A stretch of 64,000 nucleotides of DNA from Streptomyces mayonensis (GTDB lineage: Bacteria > Actinomycetota > Actinomycetes > Streptomycetales > Streptomycetaceae), in NCBI RefSeq assembly GCF_018982965.1, contig NZ_JACBYP010000006.1, positions 62,001 to 126,000 of the forward strand, written 5' to 3'. Of this stretch, positions 40,634 to 47,698 are shown one piece after another (position 1 is the stretch's first letter; each line of letters opens with the position of its first letter). The position numbers were made by a program, and so were the translations under genes. A model generated the notes under the pieces. The model made no database searches. It saw only the letters and a program-made list of their open reading frames with translations, and was not told the origin of the DNA.

Positions 40634-41272
40634 CTACGTCGGCGTGGCCGGTTCCTGGGCCGTGCCGGCCAGGCCCGTCAGCAGTACCCGGGACAGGTCG
40701 CGCACCCACTCCTCGTCCGCGGCGCCGGCGCTGACCAGGGTGCGGTGCACCACCGCGCCCGCGACCAGGTCGAAGATCAGGTCCACGGTGCGTCCGGCCT
40801 GGGCGGCGTCCGGCTCGGGCGGCAGCTCGCCCCGGGCCTCGGCACGGGCCCTGCCCTCCAGGACCAGACGCTTCTGCCGCTCCACGATCGACGTGCGGAT
40901 GCGCTCGCGCAGCGCGTCGTCGCGGGTGGACTCGGCGACCACGGCCATCAGGCCGCTCTTGGCCTCCGGGCGGGCCAGGATCGTCGCGAACTGCAGCACC
41001 ACGCCCTCGATGTCGGCGGCCAGGGAGCCGCTGTCGGGCAGTTCCAGCTCGTCGAAGAGTTCCGCCACCGCGTCCACGACCAGTTCGTTCTTGCCCGCCC
41101 AGCGACGGTAGAGCGTCGTCTTTGCAACCCCGGCCCGCGTTGCCACGTCTCCCAGGGTGAGCTTCGACCAGCCGAGGTCGACCAGCGCGGCCCGCGTCGC
41201 GGCCAGGATCGCGGTGTCCGCCGCGGCACTGCGCGGGCGTCCGGCACGGCCGGCGGGGGTGCTGCTCTGCAT
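40634..41272 (-). CDS. TetR-family transcriptional regulator
   Basis: 212 aa. DNA-binding domain about 20-65 with ILAATRAALVDLG, LTLGDVATRAGVAKTTLYRRWAGKNELV. C-terminal domain of the TetR_C_16-like type (ESTRDDALRERIRTSIVERQKRLV; DLIFDLVAGAVVHRTLVSAG). The ATG at 41272 follows no strong ribosome-binding site. Divergent from the thioredoxin/TPR gene across 233 bp that contains a perfect TetR-type dyad (41356-41372), probably its operator. Ligand unknown. Confidence 0.92.
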   Translation of the reverse strand: MQSSTPAGRAGRPRSAAADTAILAATRAALVDLGWSKLTLGDVATRAGVAKTTLYRRWAGKNELVVDAVAELFDELELPDSGSLAADIEGVVLQFATILARPEAKSGLMAVVAESTRDDALRERIRTSIVERQKRLVLEGRARAEARGELPPEPDAAQAGRTVDLIFDLVAGAVVHRTLVSAGAADEEWVRDLSRVLLTGLAGTAQEPATPT

Positions 41273-41505: not shown

Positions 41506-42483
41506 ATGCAGCCACGGAACATGTCCATGAGCGGGGTCGTCGACCTCGCCGCGGTGAAGGCGGCCCAGGAGGCCAAGACGAAGGCGGAGCAGGCGCGCGC
41601 CGAGGCGGCCAGGACCGGCGGCGCGGGCGCCGTCTCCCCGGCCGACCTCGTCATCGACGTCGACGAGGCCGGCTTCGAGAGCGATGTCCTGCAGCGGTCC
41701 ACCGAGGTCCCGGTCGTCATCGACTTCTGGGCCGAGTGGTGCGAGCCCTGCAAGCAGTTGAGCCCGGTCCTGGAGCGGCTGGCCGTCGAGTACAACGGGC
41801 GTTTCCTGCTCGCCAAGATCGACGTGGACGCCAACCAGACGCTGATGCAGCAGTTCGGCGTCCAGGGCATCCCCGCCGTCTTCGCGGTCGTGGCCGGGCA
41901 GGCGCTGCCGCTCTTCCAGGGGGCCGCGGGCGAGGCGCAGATCCGCCAGACCCTGGACCAGCTGGTGCAGGTCGGCGAGGAGCGCTTCGGCCTGACCGGC
42001 CTCACCGTCGACCCCGAGGCCGAGCCCGGTGCCGCGCAGGCCGCCGCCCCGGAGCGCCCGGCCTCACCGCACGACGCCGCACTCGAGGCCGCCGTGCGGG
42101 CCCTTGACGCGGGCGACCTGAGCGGCGCCGTCCAGGCGTACAAGAACGTGCTGGCCGACGAGCCGGCCAACACCGAGGCCAAAGTGGGCCTGGCCCAGGC
42201 CGAGTTGCTCCAGCGGGTGCAGGACGCCGACCCGCAGCGGGTCCGGCAGGAGGCCGCGGACAAGCCGGGCGATGCCCAGGCGCAGATCGCCGCGGCCGAC
42301 CTGGACCTGGTGGGCGGTCACGTGGAGGACGCCTTCGGCCGCCTGGTCGACGCGGTGCGCGTCACGGCGGGCGACGAGCGCAACGCCGTACGGGTGCGGC
42401 TCCTCGAGCTGTTCGAGGTGGTCGGTGGGGACGACCCACGGGTGGCGGCGGCACGCAGGGCGCTCTCCCGCGCCTTGTTCTAG
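41506..42483 (+). CDS. Thioredoxin-fold plus TPR protein (YbbN/CnoX-like)
   Basis: 325 aa. An N-terminal Ala/Lys-rich helix (about 15-40) is followed by a thioredoxin domain (about 45-160) with redox site WCEPC (Cys79, Cys82) and cis-Pro in GIPAVFA, then a C-terminal TPR-like region (about 185-325; LEAAVRALDAGDLSGAVQAYKNVL). This architecture matches YbbN/CnoX, a holdase that passes oxidation-sensitive proteins to GroEL/DnaK. Here both active-site cysteines are retained, unlike E. coli YbbN. ATG with GGGGAGG. Cytoplasmic. Confidence 0.92.
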   Translation: MQPRNMSMSGVVDLAAVKAAQEAKTKAEQARAEAARTGGAGAVSPADLVIDVDEAGFESDVLQRSTEVPVVIDFWAEWCEPCKQLSPVLERLAVEYNGRFLLAKIDVDANQTLMQQFGVQGIPAVFAVVAGQALPLFQGAAGEAQIRQTLDQLVQVGEERFGLTGLTVDPEAEPGAAQAAAPERPASPHDAALEAAVRALDAGDLSGAVQAYKNVLADEPANTEAKVGLAQAELLQRVQDADPQRVRQEAADKPGDAQAQIAAADLDLVGGHVEDAFGRLVDAVRVTAGDERNAVRVRLLELFEVVGGDDPRVAAARRALSRALF

Positions 42484-42515
42484 ACGGGTACCGGGTCCGG
42501 ACGGGCGCCGGGTCC

Positions 42516-42659
42516 CGGGCGGGTGCCGGCAATCGGACGCGCACCGAAACCCGGGCGGGTGCCGGCGCTCGGACGAGCACCGGAATCCGGACGGGGACCG
42601 GCAACCGGACGAGCGCCGGAATCCGGGCGGGTGCCGGATTCCGGTTCGGGGCCGGTGCG
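42516..42659. repeat. Four degenerate 36-bp tandem units
   Basis: Units start at 42516, 42552, 42588 and 42624, most beginning CGGGCGGGTGCCGG, with partial copies before. Each unit itself looks like two related 18-bp halves (GGTGCCGG / GCACCGG). Confidence 0.7.
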
Positions 42660-42732
42660 TCGTCCGTTGGCCGGCCGTTCAAACGCTCGTCCGGTGTGAC
42701 CCGTGTGAAGGAGCTGTCGACGAGTCGTCACT

Positions 42733-42770
42733 GCGGCCGCGCTTTACCAAAACTTGGTAATCGCGGCCGC
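42733..42770. promoter_or_regulatory. Nested inverted repeat around TTACCAAAACTTGGTAA
   Basis: Outer arms GCGGCCGCG (42733-42741) and CGCGGCCGC (42762-42770) enclose TTACCAA (42744-42750), AAC, TTGGTAA (42754-42760). It is the first of three TTAC...GTAA palindromes upstream of the DUF6230 operon. Confidence 0.6.
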
Positions 42771-42772
42771 TG

Positions 42773-42785
42773 TTACTGGCAGTAA
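42773..42785. promoter_or_regulatory. Palindrome TTACTGGCAGTAA
   Basis: Perfect 6-bp inverted repeat around one central G, 2 bp after the preceding nested repeat. Candidate regulator operator. Confidence 0.6.
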
Positions 42786-42900
42786 GTCCAGTGCGTCGAT
42801 CTGTCGGAGTCTGTCCGCCGATCCATGGTTTTGTTCCGGCCTCGGGGCGCACCCAGCGTCGCCGTTCGGAGGCGGTGTGTCGTCCTCCGGTTATCCGTCC

Positions 42901-42916
42901 GTTACTAGCCAGTAAC
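42901..42916. promoter_or_regulatory. Palindrome GTTACTAGCCAGTAAC
   Basis: 16-bp palindrome with one mismatched pair, sharing the TTACT/AGTAA ends of the site at 42773-42785. The centres are about 130 bp apart. Confidence 0.6.
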
Positions 42917-43297
42917 GAACCCCCTTGTGCCGAGGGCGAGAATGCACCACGATCGGCGACGCTCGGTCCATTCCCGTTCCCCGAAAGCCAGTCGGGTCGC
43001 GGGTGCTCCTGGGTCCCCACCGAGCAGGGTCGGTTGCAGTGGAGCCGGCCCTTGGGCAGGGGGGTCTTCGTCCAACCGGCGAAGCCTGCCCAGCAGGGTT
43101 GTGCGTGATGCGTGTCAGGCGCGACCAGTGGTTGTCGCTCGGGGGTGATCGCCGGTGATCCGGGGCGCGTGGTACGTGCCGCCGAGCGCAGGCGCTCTCC
43201 TTCCCGAGGACGTAGCACTTCTCCCATCCCTGCCAGCCGCGCCGCCGAACCGGAGGCCGGACGAGGCCAGGAGATGTACGTCCGAGAAGGAGGAAAT

Positions 43298-43930
43298 ATG
43301 GAGTCCCAGGTGCGTGGCGGGACCAGATGGAAGCGGTTCGCTGTGGTCATGGTGCCCAGCGTCGCCGCGACGGCTGCGATAGGTGTCGCGCTCGCGCAGG
43401 GCGCTCTCGCGGCGTCGTTCAGCGTCTCCGGGCAGTCGTTCAAGGTGACGGCGGACCGGCTCGACGGCACGGGCTTCTCCCAGTACGGGGCGGTCGACCA
43501 GGGCTACACGCTGAAGGGCGAGAAGGCGGCTCACCCCGTCGCGGTCTCGGCGTTCAAGTCCGCGACGATCAAGAACCTGTGCCAGTCGGTGGTCACCCCG
43601 GACATCCCGCTGATCGGTTCCGTCAGCCTCACGCTGAAGGCCGGCGGTGGTGAGAAGCCGGTCGAGGCCGAGAACCTGTACATCGACATCGAGGACCTGC
43701 AGGCCGATGCCACGTTCCGCAACATCGACATCGGTGTCGCGGCCAAGGACGCCGACAAGGGTCCCGGCATCAAGAAGGGCGACACCACCAACCCCAACGG
43801 GTTCGCCCAGCAGGCCGACACGGCCACGCTGACCGGTGTGAAGCAGACGGCGTGGGCGACCACCGCCGGAACCTTCAAGCTCAGCGGTCTGAAGATGTCG
43901 CTGTCCAAGGGTGTCAAGGAGTGCTACTAA
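43298..43930 (+). CDS. DUF6230-family secreted/envelope protein
   Basis: 210 aa. Signal peptide or anchor at 1-39 (basic WKRFAVVMVPS, hydrophobic AATAAIGVALAQGALA). The mature part is predicted mostly beta and contains FSVSGQSFKVTADRLDGTGF, AENLYIDIEDLQADATFRNI and LSGLKMSLSKGVKECY, with two Cys (NLCQSV and the C-terminal ECY) able to form a disulfide. Homologues have sometimes been labelled cholesterol esterase, but I see no GxSxG esterase motif. ATG with AAGGAGG at 4 nt. First gene of an apparent operon with a DUF6114 membrane protein and an acidic secreted protein. Function unknown. Confidence 0.85.
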   Translation: MESQVRGGTRWKRFAVVMVPSVAATAAIGVALAQGALAASFSVSGQSFKVTADRLDGTGFSQYGAVDQGYTLKGEKAAHPVAVSAFKSATIKNLCQSVVTPDIPLIGSVSLTLKAGGGEKPVEAENLYIDIEDLQADATFRNIDIGVAAKDADKGPGIKKGDTTNPNGFAQQADTATLTGVKQTAWATTAGTFKLSGLKMSLSKGVKECY

Positions 43931-44046
43931 GCGCTCCCTGAAGGGCGGGGGAGCCACGGCGCCCCCGCCCGTCCACTCTCCGGCCGCGTCGTCGCACGCG
44001 GTCCACGTCTCCACCACAGCAAAGCCGTACCAGGGAGCTGTTTTCC

Positions 44047-44700
44047 ATGAGCGCCGAGACTCCTGCCGCAGCCGGCCAGTTCACCCGCCGGAGGCTGCAG
44101 TTCCGTGCCTGGCGAGGCGGGCGGCCGTTCTGGGCCGGCCTGTTCATCGCGCTCGGCGGCCTCCCCATCGCCTACTTCCCGTACGCGAACCTCCAGATCG
44201 GTCACCTGACGCTGGCGATGGCCACCACCGCGGGCGCCGGGTCGCTGATCATCGGAGTCCTGCTGGTCGTCCTGGGCATCAGCCTGTGGTTCCAGAAGCA
44301 CGTCCGGGTCTTCGCGGGTGTGGCGGCGATCCTGCTGGCGCTGGTATCCATCCCCGTGTCCAACCTCGGCGGTTTCCTGATCGGCTTCCTGCTCGCACTG
44401 GTCGGCGGCGCGATGGCCGTGTCCTGGGTGCCGGGCGAGCCGCCGCAGGCCGAGCCGCCGGCCAAGGGCGGGGAGACGGACGACACGCCCGAGGGTGCGG
44501 CCCCCGGCGCCCCCGCCGACGACACCGCGTTCCCCGGCTTCCCGGAGCCCGGCACGCGCGGGGCCGACGGCGCGGTGCCGAAGCCGAGGGACGGGATGGA
44601 CGACGGGAGTCCCGCGCAGGCCTACGCGGCACTGCGGGCGAACGATCTGTCAGGAACGAGCCCGGCCAACGGGGCGAACGGGAGGCACAGTGCCGGCTGA
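44047..44700 (+). CDS. DUF6114-family membrane protein
   Basis: 217 aa. After a basic N-terminus (RRRLQFRAWRGGRPF) come four predicted helices in two hairpins: about 29-47 (WAGLFIALGGLPIAYFPY), 55-80 (LTLAMATTAGAGSLIIGVLLVVLGISLWF), 86-105 and 110-130 (LGGFLIGFLLALVGGAMAVSW). The last 85 residues are a Pro/Glu/Asp-rich hydrophilic tail. This pattern (FRAWRGGRPFWAGL) recalls DUF6114 proteins, which pair with DUF6230 proteins. It begins 116 bp after the DUF6230 gene and overlaps the next gene by 11 nt. Function unknown, presumably an envelope complex. Confidence 0.85.
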   Translation: MSAETPAAAGQFTRRRLQFRAWRGGRPFWAGLFIALGGLPIAYFPYANLQIGHLTLAMATTAGAGSLIIGVLLVVLGISLWFQKHVRVFAGVAAILLALVSIPVSNLGGFLIGFLLALVGGAMAVSWVPGEPPQAEPPAKGGETDDTPEGAAPGAPADDTAFPGFPEPGTRGADGAVPKPRDGMDDGSPAQAYAALRANDLSGTSPANGANGRHSAG

Positions 44701-46147
44701 CGAGGTGACCCGCGGGGCTGACGTGGAGTCCTCCCGCGTGAGAACCGGGCCGCGCCACGCGGCACCCAAGAAGCCGTTGTTCACCAGGTTCCACATGCCG
44801 GCCGGCAAGGCGATAGCCATCGCAGCGATGCCCACGGCCGTCCTGATGGGGATGGGGTTCACCCCGACGCTGGCCATCGCCGACGGCAACGAAGCGGCGC
44901 CGCCGACCTCCAACAGCCTGACGGCCGACGAGTACAAGGACTGCGTGGCGGCCCTGGAGGACGCCGGGAAGGACCCGTCCGGGTCGCCGTCGCCGTCGGC
45001 CACCGACGAGGCGGACAAGGGCGACGAGGGCGGCAAGGACGCCGACGAGGACGGCAAGGACGCAGACAAGGGCGACAAGGACGACAAGGGCAAGGACGGC
45101 GCCGAGAAGCCCGGCGACTCGGCCTCCGGTGCGGACGCGGGCAAGGACCGGTCCTCTTCGTCGGATTCAGGTTCCGACGACGAGGACGGCAAGGACGGCG
45201 CGTCCGAGCCCGCCCCGAGCCCGTCCGAGTCCCAGGGCCAGGGTTCGGCCGGCGCGAGCGCCGCGGAGCCTTCCCCCTCCGAGTCGGAGAAGGGCGGCCT
45301 GCTCGAGGGCATCGGCGACGCCCTCGAAGGCATCTTCACCGGCGGCAAGAAGGACGGGGAGAGCGCGAGTCCCACGCCCACCCCCTCGGCGTCCGAGAGC
45401 GCCGGCGACGACGCCTCCGACGCCGTGAAGGAGACCACCGGCAAGGTCACCGACACGGTGGAGGACACCGTGTCCGGCGTGACCGACAAGGCGTCGGAGG
45501 CGGCCGAGGACACCAAGGACACGGTGGACAAGGCGGCCGAGGCGGCGAAGGAGGCGGCCGACAAGGCCGAGGAGGACGCGGAGAAGGCCAAGGAGGACGC
45601 CGAGAAGGCCAAGGACGACGCCACCGGGACGCCTTCCCCCGGCGCCTCCGGGAGTGCCGGCACGGACGCGGACGACTGCCCGGTCGCCACCGACGACGAG
45701 GGCGGCGTCGACAACAAGGTGCCGCTGCCGGACGACCCCTGGTACCTCAACGCCAGCTCGCTGCTGCTGAAGGGCGCCTCCTACAAGGGCATCGTCGAGG
45801 TGAAGACGGCCAACGGCACCACCAAGAAGGTGCTGAAGTACGTCATCTCCAACGGCACCGACATCGGCGACCTGCACCAGACGGTCGACGACAAGCAGGC
45901 CGGCAAGACGTACCACGTCCAGGCGGCCGAGGGCTCGACGTCCACCATCCGCGACGGCGAGACGGTGATGTACACCGAGAGCATCTCGGGCAACCTGCTC
46001 GGGCTGATCCCGATCACCTTCGACCCGGACAACCCGCCGCCGCTGGACATCCCGCTCATCTACTTCACGAAGGTGACGGTCGTCCAGGCCGGGCAGTTCG
46101 GCGGCACGCTCCACGTACCGGGACTGCACCAGTACACGACGGACTGA
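44690..46147 (+). CDS. Secreted/anchored acidic repeat protein with C-terminal beta domain
   Basis: 485 aa from a GTG with GGAGG upstream, overlapping the DUF6114 stop. Basic N-terminus, one hydrophobic segment about 40-63 (AIAIAAMPTAVLMGMGF). A very long low-complexity middle (about 85-330) rich in Asp/Lys/Glu/Ser includes a helical run of KAxExAKEAADKAEEDAEKA type that could form a coiled coil. The C-terminal domain (about 345-485) is compact and beta-rich (ASYKGIVEVKTANGTTKKVLKYV ... VTVVQAGQFGGTLHVPGLHQY). The C-terminal domain may contact the DUF6230 protein or lipids. Function unknown; likely surface exposed. Confidence 0.8.
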   Translation: MPADEVTRGADVESSRVRTGPRHAAPKKPLFTRFHMPAGKAIAIAAMPTAVLMGMGFTPTLAIADGNEAAPPTSNSLTADEYKDCVAALEDAGKDPSGSPSPSATDEADKGDEGGKDADEDGKDADKGDKDDKGKDGAEKPGDSASGADAGKDRSSSSDSGSDDEDGKDGASEPAPSPSESQGQGSAGASAAEPSPSESEKGGLLEGIGDALEGIFTGGKKDGESASPTPTPSASESAGDDASDAVKETTGKVTDTVEDTVSGVTDKASEAAEDTKDTVDKAAEAAKEAADKAEEDAEKAKEDAEKAKDDATGTPSPGASGSAGTDADDCPVATDDEGGVDNKVPLPDDPWYLNASSLLLKGASYKGIVEVKTANGTTKKVLKYVISNGTDIGDLHQTVDDKQAGKTYHVQAAEGSTSTIRDGETVMYTESISGNLLGLIPITFDPDNPPPLDIPLIYFTKVTVVQAGQFGGTLHVPGLHQYTTD

Positions 46148-46199
46148 GACCGGCGAGGAACACGACGGACTGAGACCGGCGAGGACGCCGGACGGCACC

Positions 46200-46230
46200 G
46201 AGGGCGCCCCCTGTCGCAGGGGGCGCCCTC
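46200..46230. terminator. Bidirectional terminator, perfect 14-bp stem
   Basis: GAGGGCGCCCCCTG (46200-46213), loop TCG, exact complement 46217-46230. Between the acidic-protein gene and the convergent pyruvate kinase gene. Confidence 0.9.
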
Positions 46231-46267
46231 AGCGTCGTACCGGGCCCGTACGGGGCGGCGGCGTCCG

Positions 46268-47698
46268 TCAGCCGCGCCGGGTCTCGCCCAGGTGGTGGAC
46301 GCGGACCATGTTGGTGGTGCCGGGCACGCCGGGGGGCGAACCGGCGGTGATCACGACGATGTCTCCGTCGCTGAACCGGCCCAGACGCATCGTCTCCTGG
46401 TCCACCAGGTCGACCATCTCGTCGGTGCTGTGCACGAACGGCACCACGTGCGGCTCCACGCCCCAGCTGAGCGCCAGCTGGTTGCGGGTCGACTCGTCGG
46501 TGGTGAAGGCCAGGATCGGCTGCGCCGCGCGGTAGCGCGACAGGCGGCGGGCGGTGTCACCGGACTGCGTGAAGGCCACCAGGCCCTTGCCGCCCAGGAA
46601 GTCGGCGATCTCGGCGGCCGCGCGGGCCACCGAACCGCCCTGCGTGCGCGGCTTCTTGCCCGGCACCAGCGGCTGCAGACCCTTGGAGAGCAGCTCGCCC
46701 TCGGCGGCCGTGACGATCTTCGACATCGTCTTGACGGTCTCGATCGGATACGCGCCCACGGACGACTCCGCCGACAGCATGACCGCGTCCGCGCCGTCCA
46801 GGATCGCGTTGGCCACGTCGGAGGCCTCGGCGCGGGTCGGACGGGAGTTGGTGATCATCGACTCCATCATCTGGGTCGCCACGATCACCGGCTTGGCGTT
46901 GCGCCGGCACAGCTCGATCAGGCGCTTCTGCACCATGGGGACCTTCTCGAGCGGGTACTCGACGGCCAGGTCGCCACGGGCGACCATCACGCCGTCGAAC
47001 GCCATCACGACGCCCTCCATGTTCTCGACCGCCTGCGGCTTCTCCACCTTGGCGACGACGGGGACGCGGCGGCCCTCCTCGTCCATCACCCGGTGCACGT
47101 CGGCGACGTCCTTGGCGTCCCGGACGAAGGACAGGGCGACCAGGTCGCAGCCCATGCGGAGGGCGAAACGGAGGTCCTCGACGTCCTTGTCGCTCAGCGC
47201 CGGGACGTTGACCGCGGCGCCGGGCAGGTTGATGCCCTTGTGGTCGGAGATGACGCCGCCCTCGATGACGATCGTCTTCACCCGCGGGCCCTCGACCTCG
47301 GTGACCTTCAGCTCGACGTTGCCGTCGTTGATGAGCACCTGGTCGCCCTTGGTGACGTCACCGGGCAGACCCTTGTACGTCGTGCCGCAGATCGTCCGGT
47401 CGCCCGGCACGTCCTCGGTGGTGATGGTGAACTCGTCACCGCGCACCAGCTCGACGGGGCCCTCGGCGAAGGTCTCCAGACGGATCTTCGGGCCCTGCAG
47501 GTCGGCCAGGACCCCGATGGCCCGGCCGGTCTCCTTGGCGGCGGCCCGCACCCGGTCGTAACGCCCCTGGTGCTCGGCGTGGCTGCCGTGGCTGAAGTTG
47601 AAGCGGGCCACGTTCATGCCGGCCTCGATCAGCGAGACGAGCTGCTCGTGGGAGTCGACCGCGGGGCCGAGAGTACAGACGATTTTCGAACGGCGCAT
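46268..47698 (-). CDS. pyk: Pyruvate kinase
   Basis: 476 aa, normal length. Catalyses phosphoenolpyruvate + ADP to pyruvate + ATP, last step of glycolysis. Motifs: MNVARFNFSHGSH, LADLQGPKIRLE (substrate/metal), VAKVEKPQAVENM with catalytic Lys, MVARGDLAVEYPLEKVP, and ATQMMESMITNSRPTRAEASDVANAILDGAD region. Streptomyces have two pyruvate kinases; this one corresponds to pyk2 by remembered synteny. It lies 73 bp downstream of ackA. A TAGGAT element (minus strand, 47710-47705) ends 6 nt before the ATG, so a private, leaderless transcript is possible. Confidence 0.96.
   Translation of the reverse strand: MRRSKIVCTLGPAVDSHEQLVSLIEAGMNVARFNFSHGSHAEHQGRYDRVRAAAKETGRAIGVLADLQGPKIRLETFAEGPVELVRGDEFTITTEDVPGDRTICGTTYKGLPGDVTKGDQVLINDGNVELKVTEVEGPRVKTIVIEGGVISDHKGINLPGAAVNVPALSDKDVEDLRFALRMGCDLVALSFVRDAKDVADVHRVMDEEGRRVPVVAKVEKPQAVENMEGVVMAFDGVMVARGDLAVEYPLEKVPMVQKRLIELCRRNAKPVIVATQMMESMITNSRPTRAEASDVANAILDGADAVMLSAESSVGAYPIETVKTMSKIVTAAEGELLSKGLQPLVPGKKPRTQGGSVARAAAEIADFLGGKGLVAFTQSGDTARRLSRYRAAQPILAFTTDESTRNQLALSWGVEPHVVPFVHSTDEMVDLVDQETMRLGRFSDGDIVVITAGSPPGVPGTTNMVRVHHLGETRRG

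Follow-up and report, generated by a model that had tools for sequence, protein, structure and literature searches.

The regulator FasR activates the genes of fatty-acid synthesis and leaves its DNA upon binding acyl-CoA of C16 and longer, and the DNA in its crystal structure, 25 bp long, includes TACTGGCGAGT (PMC7382501). The che1 RNA, a common structured RNA without known function (Weinberg 2017, as cited by PMC11678152), is listed as validated by RNA-seq upstream of SLIV_11405 (PMC8079986). The S. coelicolor gene SCO5420 bears the label of a cholesterol esterase and is credited with the hydrolysis of the Tween head group; its RNA was reported to be almost 37-fold higher on Tween40 than on glucose, other fatty-acid genes rising 3- to 12-fold (PMC7494193). 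C9Z6Y6, a protein of S. scabiei with the same label, is reported to account for 33-39% of the lipid class in PPM supernatants (PMC5158115) and is described as not specifically produced with suberin (PMC4098958). In the current analysis we have compared with these systems a three-gene operon of Streptomyces mayonensis that lies in a stretch of 64,000 nucleotides (the window) and encodes a DUF6230 protein, a DUF6114 membrane protein and a third, acidic protein behind a long leader. It is probably a fatty-acid-induced envelope operon belonging to the regulon of a FasR-like TetR protein, with a structured che1 leader and perhaps a role in handling lipids or fatty acids in the envelope. Its palindromes and genes are placed as follows.

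42733..42770, no strand assigned: P1 hairpin, a 9-bp G+C stem around TTACCAAAACTTGGTAA, identified by covariation and about one copy per genome
42744-42760, no strand assigned: P1 palindrome TTACCAAAACTTGGTAA, the core of the 42733..42770 hairpin
42773..42785, no strand assigned: P2, a 13-bp putative operator TTACTGGCAGTAA, found in 77 of 80 loci, its motif also occurring at fatty-acid genes
42902..42915, no strand assigned: P3, a 14-bp putative operator TTACTAGCCAGTAA, found in 72 of 80 loci at a fixed distance from P2
43298..43930, plus strand: DUF6230 protein of 210 residues (PF19741, 209.6 bits, E 3e-62, gathering cut-off 27.5)
44047..44700, plus strand: DUF6114 membrane protein of 217 residues (PF19609, 119 bits, E 2e-34, gathering cut-off 27.9)
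44690..46147, plus strand: third protein of 485 residues with a GTG start, an acidic repeat region and a C-terminal all-beta domain

The initial annotation had described a leader of 814 bp that carries three palindromes and is followed by three closely spaced genes, the last two overlapping, and this layout has been found as placed and conserved across Streptomyces. The leader extends from the end of the upstream thioredoxin-like gene at 42483 to the ATG of the DUF6230 gene at 43298. The palindromes are indeed kept near orthologous operons, strict patterns for P1, P2 and P3 being matched in 79, 77 and 72 of 80 named Streptomyces loci. P1 and P2 are spaced by 28 nt in 76 of the 76 loci having both. 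Between P2 and P3 the spacing is 129 nt in all 69 loci with both sites, and it ranges from 128 to 130 nt in more distant leaders. The overlap between the DUF6114 gene and the third gene measures 11 nt in the window and in 75 of the 79 named loci that have both. A first family search of 30 loci recovered all three palindromes in 12, P2 with P3 in five, a P3-like site only in nine and none in four; all nine P3-like-only leaders come from another family. Two further comparisons took in the window with 39 of the 80 named loci, and the window with 22.

The gene 5' of the operon encodes a thioredoxin/TPR protein, and the downstream gene on the opposite strand is one that we take, by eye, to encode pyruvate kinase. 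In S. coelicolor SCO5419 is trxA4 (PMC9952706) and SCO5423 is pyk2 (PMC7494193); from the synteny of these flanks the three genes should therefore correspond to SCO5420-5422.

P2 and P3 have conserved arms and a variable centre, and share the motif TTACY-N3/4-RGTAA. The strict form TTACTN3-4AGTAA has four sites in the 8.65 Mb genome, of which two are in this leader, one precedes an acyl-CoA ligase gene (L001) and one lies between FabG-like and thiolase genes (L002). A tandem form, TTACYN{3,4}RGTAAN{2,15}TTAC, was matched 190 times against eight for the reversed pattern in 41 genomes, counting both strands so that one place can count twice; 40 of the 41 genomes have a match, and in this leader the match links P2 with an arm of P1. 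Among 30 tandem loci that were fetched, 14 belong to an acyl-CoA dehydrogenase/TetR pair, six to a secreted S15-type hydrolase, three to FabG/thiolase genes and two to acyl-CoA ligases that are 53-55% identical, five being without assignment. Outside the genus tandem matches occur in five of 16 genomes, and four of those five have an acyl-CoA dehydrogenase within ~1.1 kb. Single sites with Y/R arms are found beside a second ligase gene (L036) and beside a gene that we read as that of a biotin carboxylase (L039).

One palindromic motif is hence common to several fatty-acid genes and to this operon, as is characteristic of a regulon, and P2 and P3 carry the motif that marks promoters of fatty-acid catabolism in Streptomyces. 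The shared operators, the coherent set of companion genes and the published induction of SCO5420 make it most likely that the operon belongs to a fatty-acid regulon. The tight regulation and lipid connection proposed in the initial annotation gain support from the same operators and from the roughly 37-fold response to Tween (PMC7494193). Among the papers listed by literature searches, no title or abstract opening describes this regulon. The secreted CocE/S15-type hydrolase (L052, L053, L062, L064) repeatedly accompanies the motif and may share in the response to lipid feeding. A further motif, TTACCGAAAGGTAATCAT, occurs at four places in one genome (L219, L221, L223 and L224 of G027) and is perhaps a repeated element.

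The candidate regulator is encoded by a TetR gene divergent from the acyl-CoA dehydrogenase gene (L037:1643-2299) and has a TetR_C_32 domain; the S. coelicolor counterpart of the pair is, we believe, SCO1690/SCO1691. Its best solved relatives are 6o6p/6o6n (E 3e-17), which we take to be FasR of M. tuberculosis, and it scores 87-90 bits with the NCBIfam FasR profile, whose cut-off is 330. Among the four best of 81 matches to this profile, the motif is present in the locus of the acyl-CoA-dehydrogenase-linked TetR only. The likeness to FasR includes the sequence relationship of the two proteins, the acyl-CoA ligand proposed here, which is that of FasR, and the resemblance of TACTGGCGAGT in the FasR DNA to P3, variants of which read TACTAGCGAGT. 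The two differ in that FasR activates genes of fatty-acid synthesis (PMC7382501), whereas the genes considered here are for breakdown and for the envelope and would be repressed. In two leaders of another genus (L031, L032) TTGACC and TAACTT stand 17 nt apart and a P3-like site takes up the whole space between them, a position as for a repressor site.

The initial annotation had treated the palindromes as one cluster of like elements, a view which does not hold, as they are two different kinds of element, P1 on one side and P2 and P3 on the other. The P1 pattern is matched 36 times, in 35 of the 41 genomes, and its reversed form six times. Of the 18 genomes that match and have a known DUF6230 position, 17 carry a match just upstream of DUF6230; one genome (G001) has no match upstream of DUF6230 and another (G002) has a second match elsewhere. 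Relatives of P1 were picked by the palindrome core, the flanking stem not being used in the picking. In 49 distinct relatives nine of 16 pairs change on both sides, eight of which belong to the stem flanking the core, with 40 double-change cells against 12.3 in shuffles and lower values when the pairing is slid. A covarying stem present in about one copy per genome identifies P1 as a hairpin. Its candidacy as a further site of the regulon was rejected, with about one copy per genome, beside DUF6230. P1 follows shortly downstream of the thioredoxin stop codon in the four relatives examined, and from this closeness we guess that the hairpin probably terminates the thioredoxin transcript or insulates it.

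The part of the leader that follows P3 is comprised of a conserved structured RNA, with the following features.

42917..43024, plus strand: conserved stretch 5' of che1 (GAACCCCCTTGTGC ... ACCACGATCGGC ... GGTCCCCACCG), seen in alignments and also in another family
43027..43051 (approximate), plus strand: covarying hairpin just 5' of che1 (alifold on 95 distinct leaders, with as many as 29 double changes at a single pair)
43053..43154, plus strand: che1 RNA, Rfam RF02935 (95.2 bits, gathering 54.1, E 9.7e-15, model positions 1-91 of 91)
43132..43155, plus strand: segment U, the 3' part of che1 (U:M duplex -27.6 kcal/mol, a strength reached by 41 of ~14200 control windows)
43191..43216, plus strand: segment M, a conserved block able to pair with either U or D, from alignment and duplex energies
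43273..43297, plus strand: segment D, the ribosome-binding region GATGTACGTCCGAGAAGGAGGAAAT (M:D duplex -23.0 kcal/mol, a strength reached by 567 of 14218 control windows)

The leader matches the full che1 model, and differs from the Rfam entry in that about 550 nt are conserved, with operators, hairpins and a block pairing with the ribosome-binding site lying beyond the match. The alignment of leaders covers 17 of 30 loci (L010, L015, L018, L021 and L025-L033, being of other families, paralogs or cut off, were dropped), and the alifold set covers 96 of 97 leaders, 95 of them distinct (L141, with P1 unmatched, was dropped). The hairpins of che1 itself also covary in this set. In the order, 182 of 197 genomes encode che1; these all belong to the family of the window, and none of the 15 genomes of other families has it. 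The part from P3 to GGTCCCCACCG is kept in the leaders of another family, the genomes of which have no che1 match.

Across the 95 leaders the segments U, M and D hardly vary, and they are without covariation. A switch between M:U and M:D pairing may control translation, a proposal drawn from invariance and anatomy; the M:D duplex is not extreme, since 567 of the control windows equal it. The arrangement resembles translational riboswitch platforms in having one block with two mutually exclusive pairings, one of which covers the ribosome-binding site, and differs from them in that those have a ligand and that here the switch pairing is without support from covariation. In L031 and L032 the 11-mer TTGTCGCTCGG, the same as the start of segment U, comes immediately behind the promoter-like hexamers of DUF6230. 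A scan of 42300-46400 for sigma-70-type promoters and T-tailed terminators gave no candidate for the former and one for the latter, which lies antisense within the third gene; in Streptomyces leaders the promoter hexamers are not clear.

The DUF6230 protein, whose nearest named match is from S. olivaceus (98% identity), has a signal-peptide-like N-terminus and the DUF6114 protein has hydrophobic stretches, both judged by eye, and the sequence type of the proteins agrees with the envelope location proposed for them earlier. DUF6230 and DUF6114 are an inseparable pair. Each is found at 62 places in 31 genomes and is present in 29 of them; 60 are paired within 1.5 kb on one strand, and the four unpaired cases comprise a fragment, a below-cut-off match and two contig ends of a single genome. 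The third gene, found in 20 of the 31 genomes (19 of the same genus, the own genome included, and one other), is nearly restricted to Streptomyces. The expected co-occurrence of the genes is consequently upheld for the pair and fails for the third gene. The initial description of the system as undescribed and without known function is partly mistaken, since che1 is in Rfam and SCO5420 has been called a cholesterol esterase.

C95 and C209 are kept in 56 of 56 DUF6230 members. Profile sequence search of the Protein Data Bank gave zero matches for DUF6230 and four weak ones (E 0.03 to 0.07) for the third domain, to repeat or ankyrin proteins, and in Pfam the third protein has no family above cut-off. 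A plasmid collection gave five records, every one below 60% identity. Tandem doubled DUF6230-DUF6114 pairs of divergent type have been identified in three genomes (G004:C5, G015:C1, G023:C17), and the own genome encodes a second DUF6230 gene (G000:C212:68219-68701) with one TGA in the matched frame and an intact DUF6114 gene adjoining. Directly after the thioredoxin gene, at 42498-42673, there is an imperfect 18-bp tandem repeat of the CGGACGGGCGCCGG type in seven copies, which lengthens the 814-bp gap and is missing in the four relatives examined (L105, L106, L110, L119).

Judging from the sequences, the FasR-like TetR protein encoded beside the acyl-CoA dehydrogenase would bind P2 and P3 and repress transcription, and both this protein as the regulator and its ligand are predictions. 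Uptake of fatty acids would raise long-chain acyl-CoA, by which the TetR protein would be released, and the derepressed transcript would bear the long structured leader with che1. Less surely, pairing of M with the 3' part of che1 would leave the ribosome-binding site free and pairing of M with that site would close it, so that translation would form a second checkpoint. The secreted DUF6230, the membrane protein DUF6114 and the acidic third protein would then act jointly in the envelope on lipids or fatty acids. That the che1 leader itself senses a lipid-related signal and, with a TetR protein releasable by acyl-CoA, makes a two-step gate for a lipid device of the three proteins is a bolder extension, which we regard as quite unlikely.

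Several observations weigh against the proposed regulon and switch. The strict motif is no more frequent in the genome than its reversed control (4 vs 4), the Y/R-arm motif has 14 sites against eight reversed in the same genome, some single sites adjoin unrelated or unassigned genes, and in a genus of the other family with P3-like leaders (g3) no tandem match was found in 10 genomes. P2 and P3 as TetR binding sites are themselves predicted. The M:D pairing, for which 18 of 30 leaders were usable (the U:M figures for L191 and L194 being artefacts of overlapping segments), is kept in 16 of 18 and lost in the two where M is gone, and it has no advantage in own over swapped combinations (-20.4 vs -20.8). 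No structure was matched by Foldseek at E <= 0.001 for the models of DUF6230 (predicted local distance difference test, pLDDT, 50) or of the C-terminal all-beta domain of the third protein (pLDDT 65); with such models and empty searches no fold is claimed. Another protein of the same genome, on contig C97, scores 270 bits with the FasR profile, and the linked TetR, with 87 bits under a cut-off of 330, is therefore a relative and not the ortholog of FasR. The operators could thus serve another regulator, namely the C97 protein, the FasR-like TetR of C99 (97 bits), which is near FabG/thiolase genes and ~2.6 kb from a tandem site, or the local TetR (40634-41272), whose gene starts only 1.5 kb from the leader. 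This is unlikely to our mind, as the loci of C97, C75 and C99 contain no TTAC-N4..8-GTAA within 3.4-3.6 kb and the 14-bp form, even with three mismatches allowed, is absent from the promoter of the local TetR, whose C-terminal domain is TetR_C_11 and not TetR_C_32. The GlnR box has the form GTTAC-N6-GTAAC and P3 reads likewise, which would admit GlnR- or MtrA-type boxes and an operon answering nitrogen or envelope signals; Sven_0933, labelled a putative cholesterol esterase, is moreover 11.7-fold up in nitrogen starvation, but the table of that study gives it without an S. coelicolor counterpart (PMC3087709). As the gap of P2 is 5 nt and the companions of the motif genome-wide are mostly fatty-acid genes, such boxes appear very unlikely.

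The label of cholesterol esterase raises the possibility, which we consider doubtful, that DUF6230 is a plain secreted hydrolase of cholesterol or Tween esters and the operon ordinary lipid-feeding gear. The likeness is by synteny for SCO5420, to which Tween head-group hydrolysis is given (PMC7494193), and by label for C9Z6Y6. Against it, no histidine is conserved at >=85% in the aligned domain of the 56 DUF6230 members, the family differing in this from the esterases named, and the conserved Ser-His-Asp triad of serine esterases is therefore not present family-wide; DUF6230 is also near-obligately paired with a membrane protein. A reading of all three palindromes as parts of the leader RNA and not as protein sites draws on the covariation of P1 and on symmetric T-A to C-G swaps in P3-like sites of other genera. 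It is hardly probable, given that the P2/P3 motif recurs at other promoters, that neither P2 nor P3 has a double change in 95 leaders and that the P3-like site of L031 and L032 lies between promoter-like hexamers. Lastly, a che1-bearing intergenic region of S. clavuligerus could, as reported, encode 145 residues (PMC11678152), and between P2 and P3 (42786-42901), where the length is nearly fixed, the variability of one codon phase is 0.57 bits, lower than the 0.82 and 0.84 bits of the other two. A conserved short open reading frame here, the spacing of 129 being a multiple of three, was nevertheless not favoured: each of the six frames has stops in 17 to 76 of 77 sequences, and in four frames the protein identity is above that of column shuffles, by similarly small amounts and with no frame prominent. 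That the leader holds a small coding gene besides regulatory DNA and RNA is highly improbable.

If the operon is indeed a fatty-acid-induced member of the TetR regulon with a switching leader, Streptomyces would possess a two-step gate, of transcription and then translation, for a dedicated Gram-positive envelope device for fatty acids or lipids. The analysis tells one cis-acting hairpin apart from two putative regulator sites of similar look, and names a candidate regulator, operator and companion genes, all testable in S. coelicolor. The orphan RNA che1 and the families DUF6230 and DUF6114, which have no function in Pfam, would thereby gain a concrete setting in the use of fatty acids.

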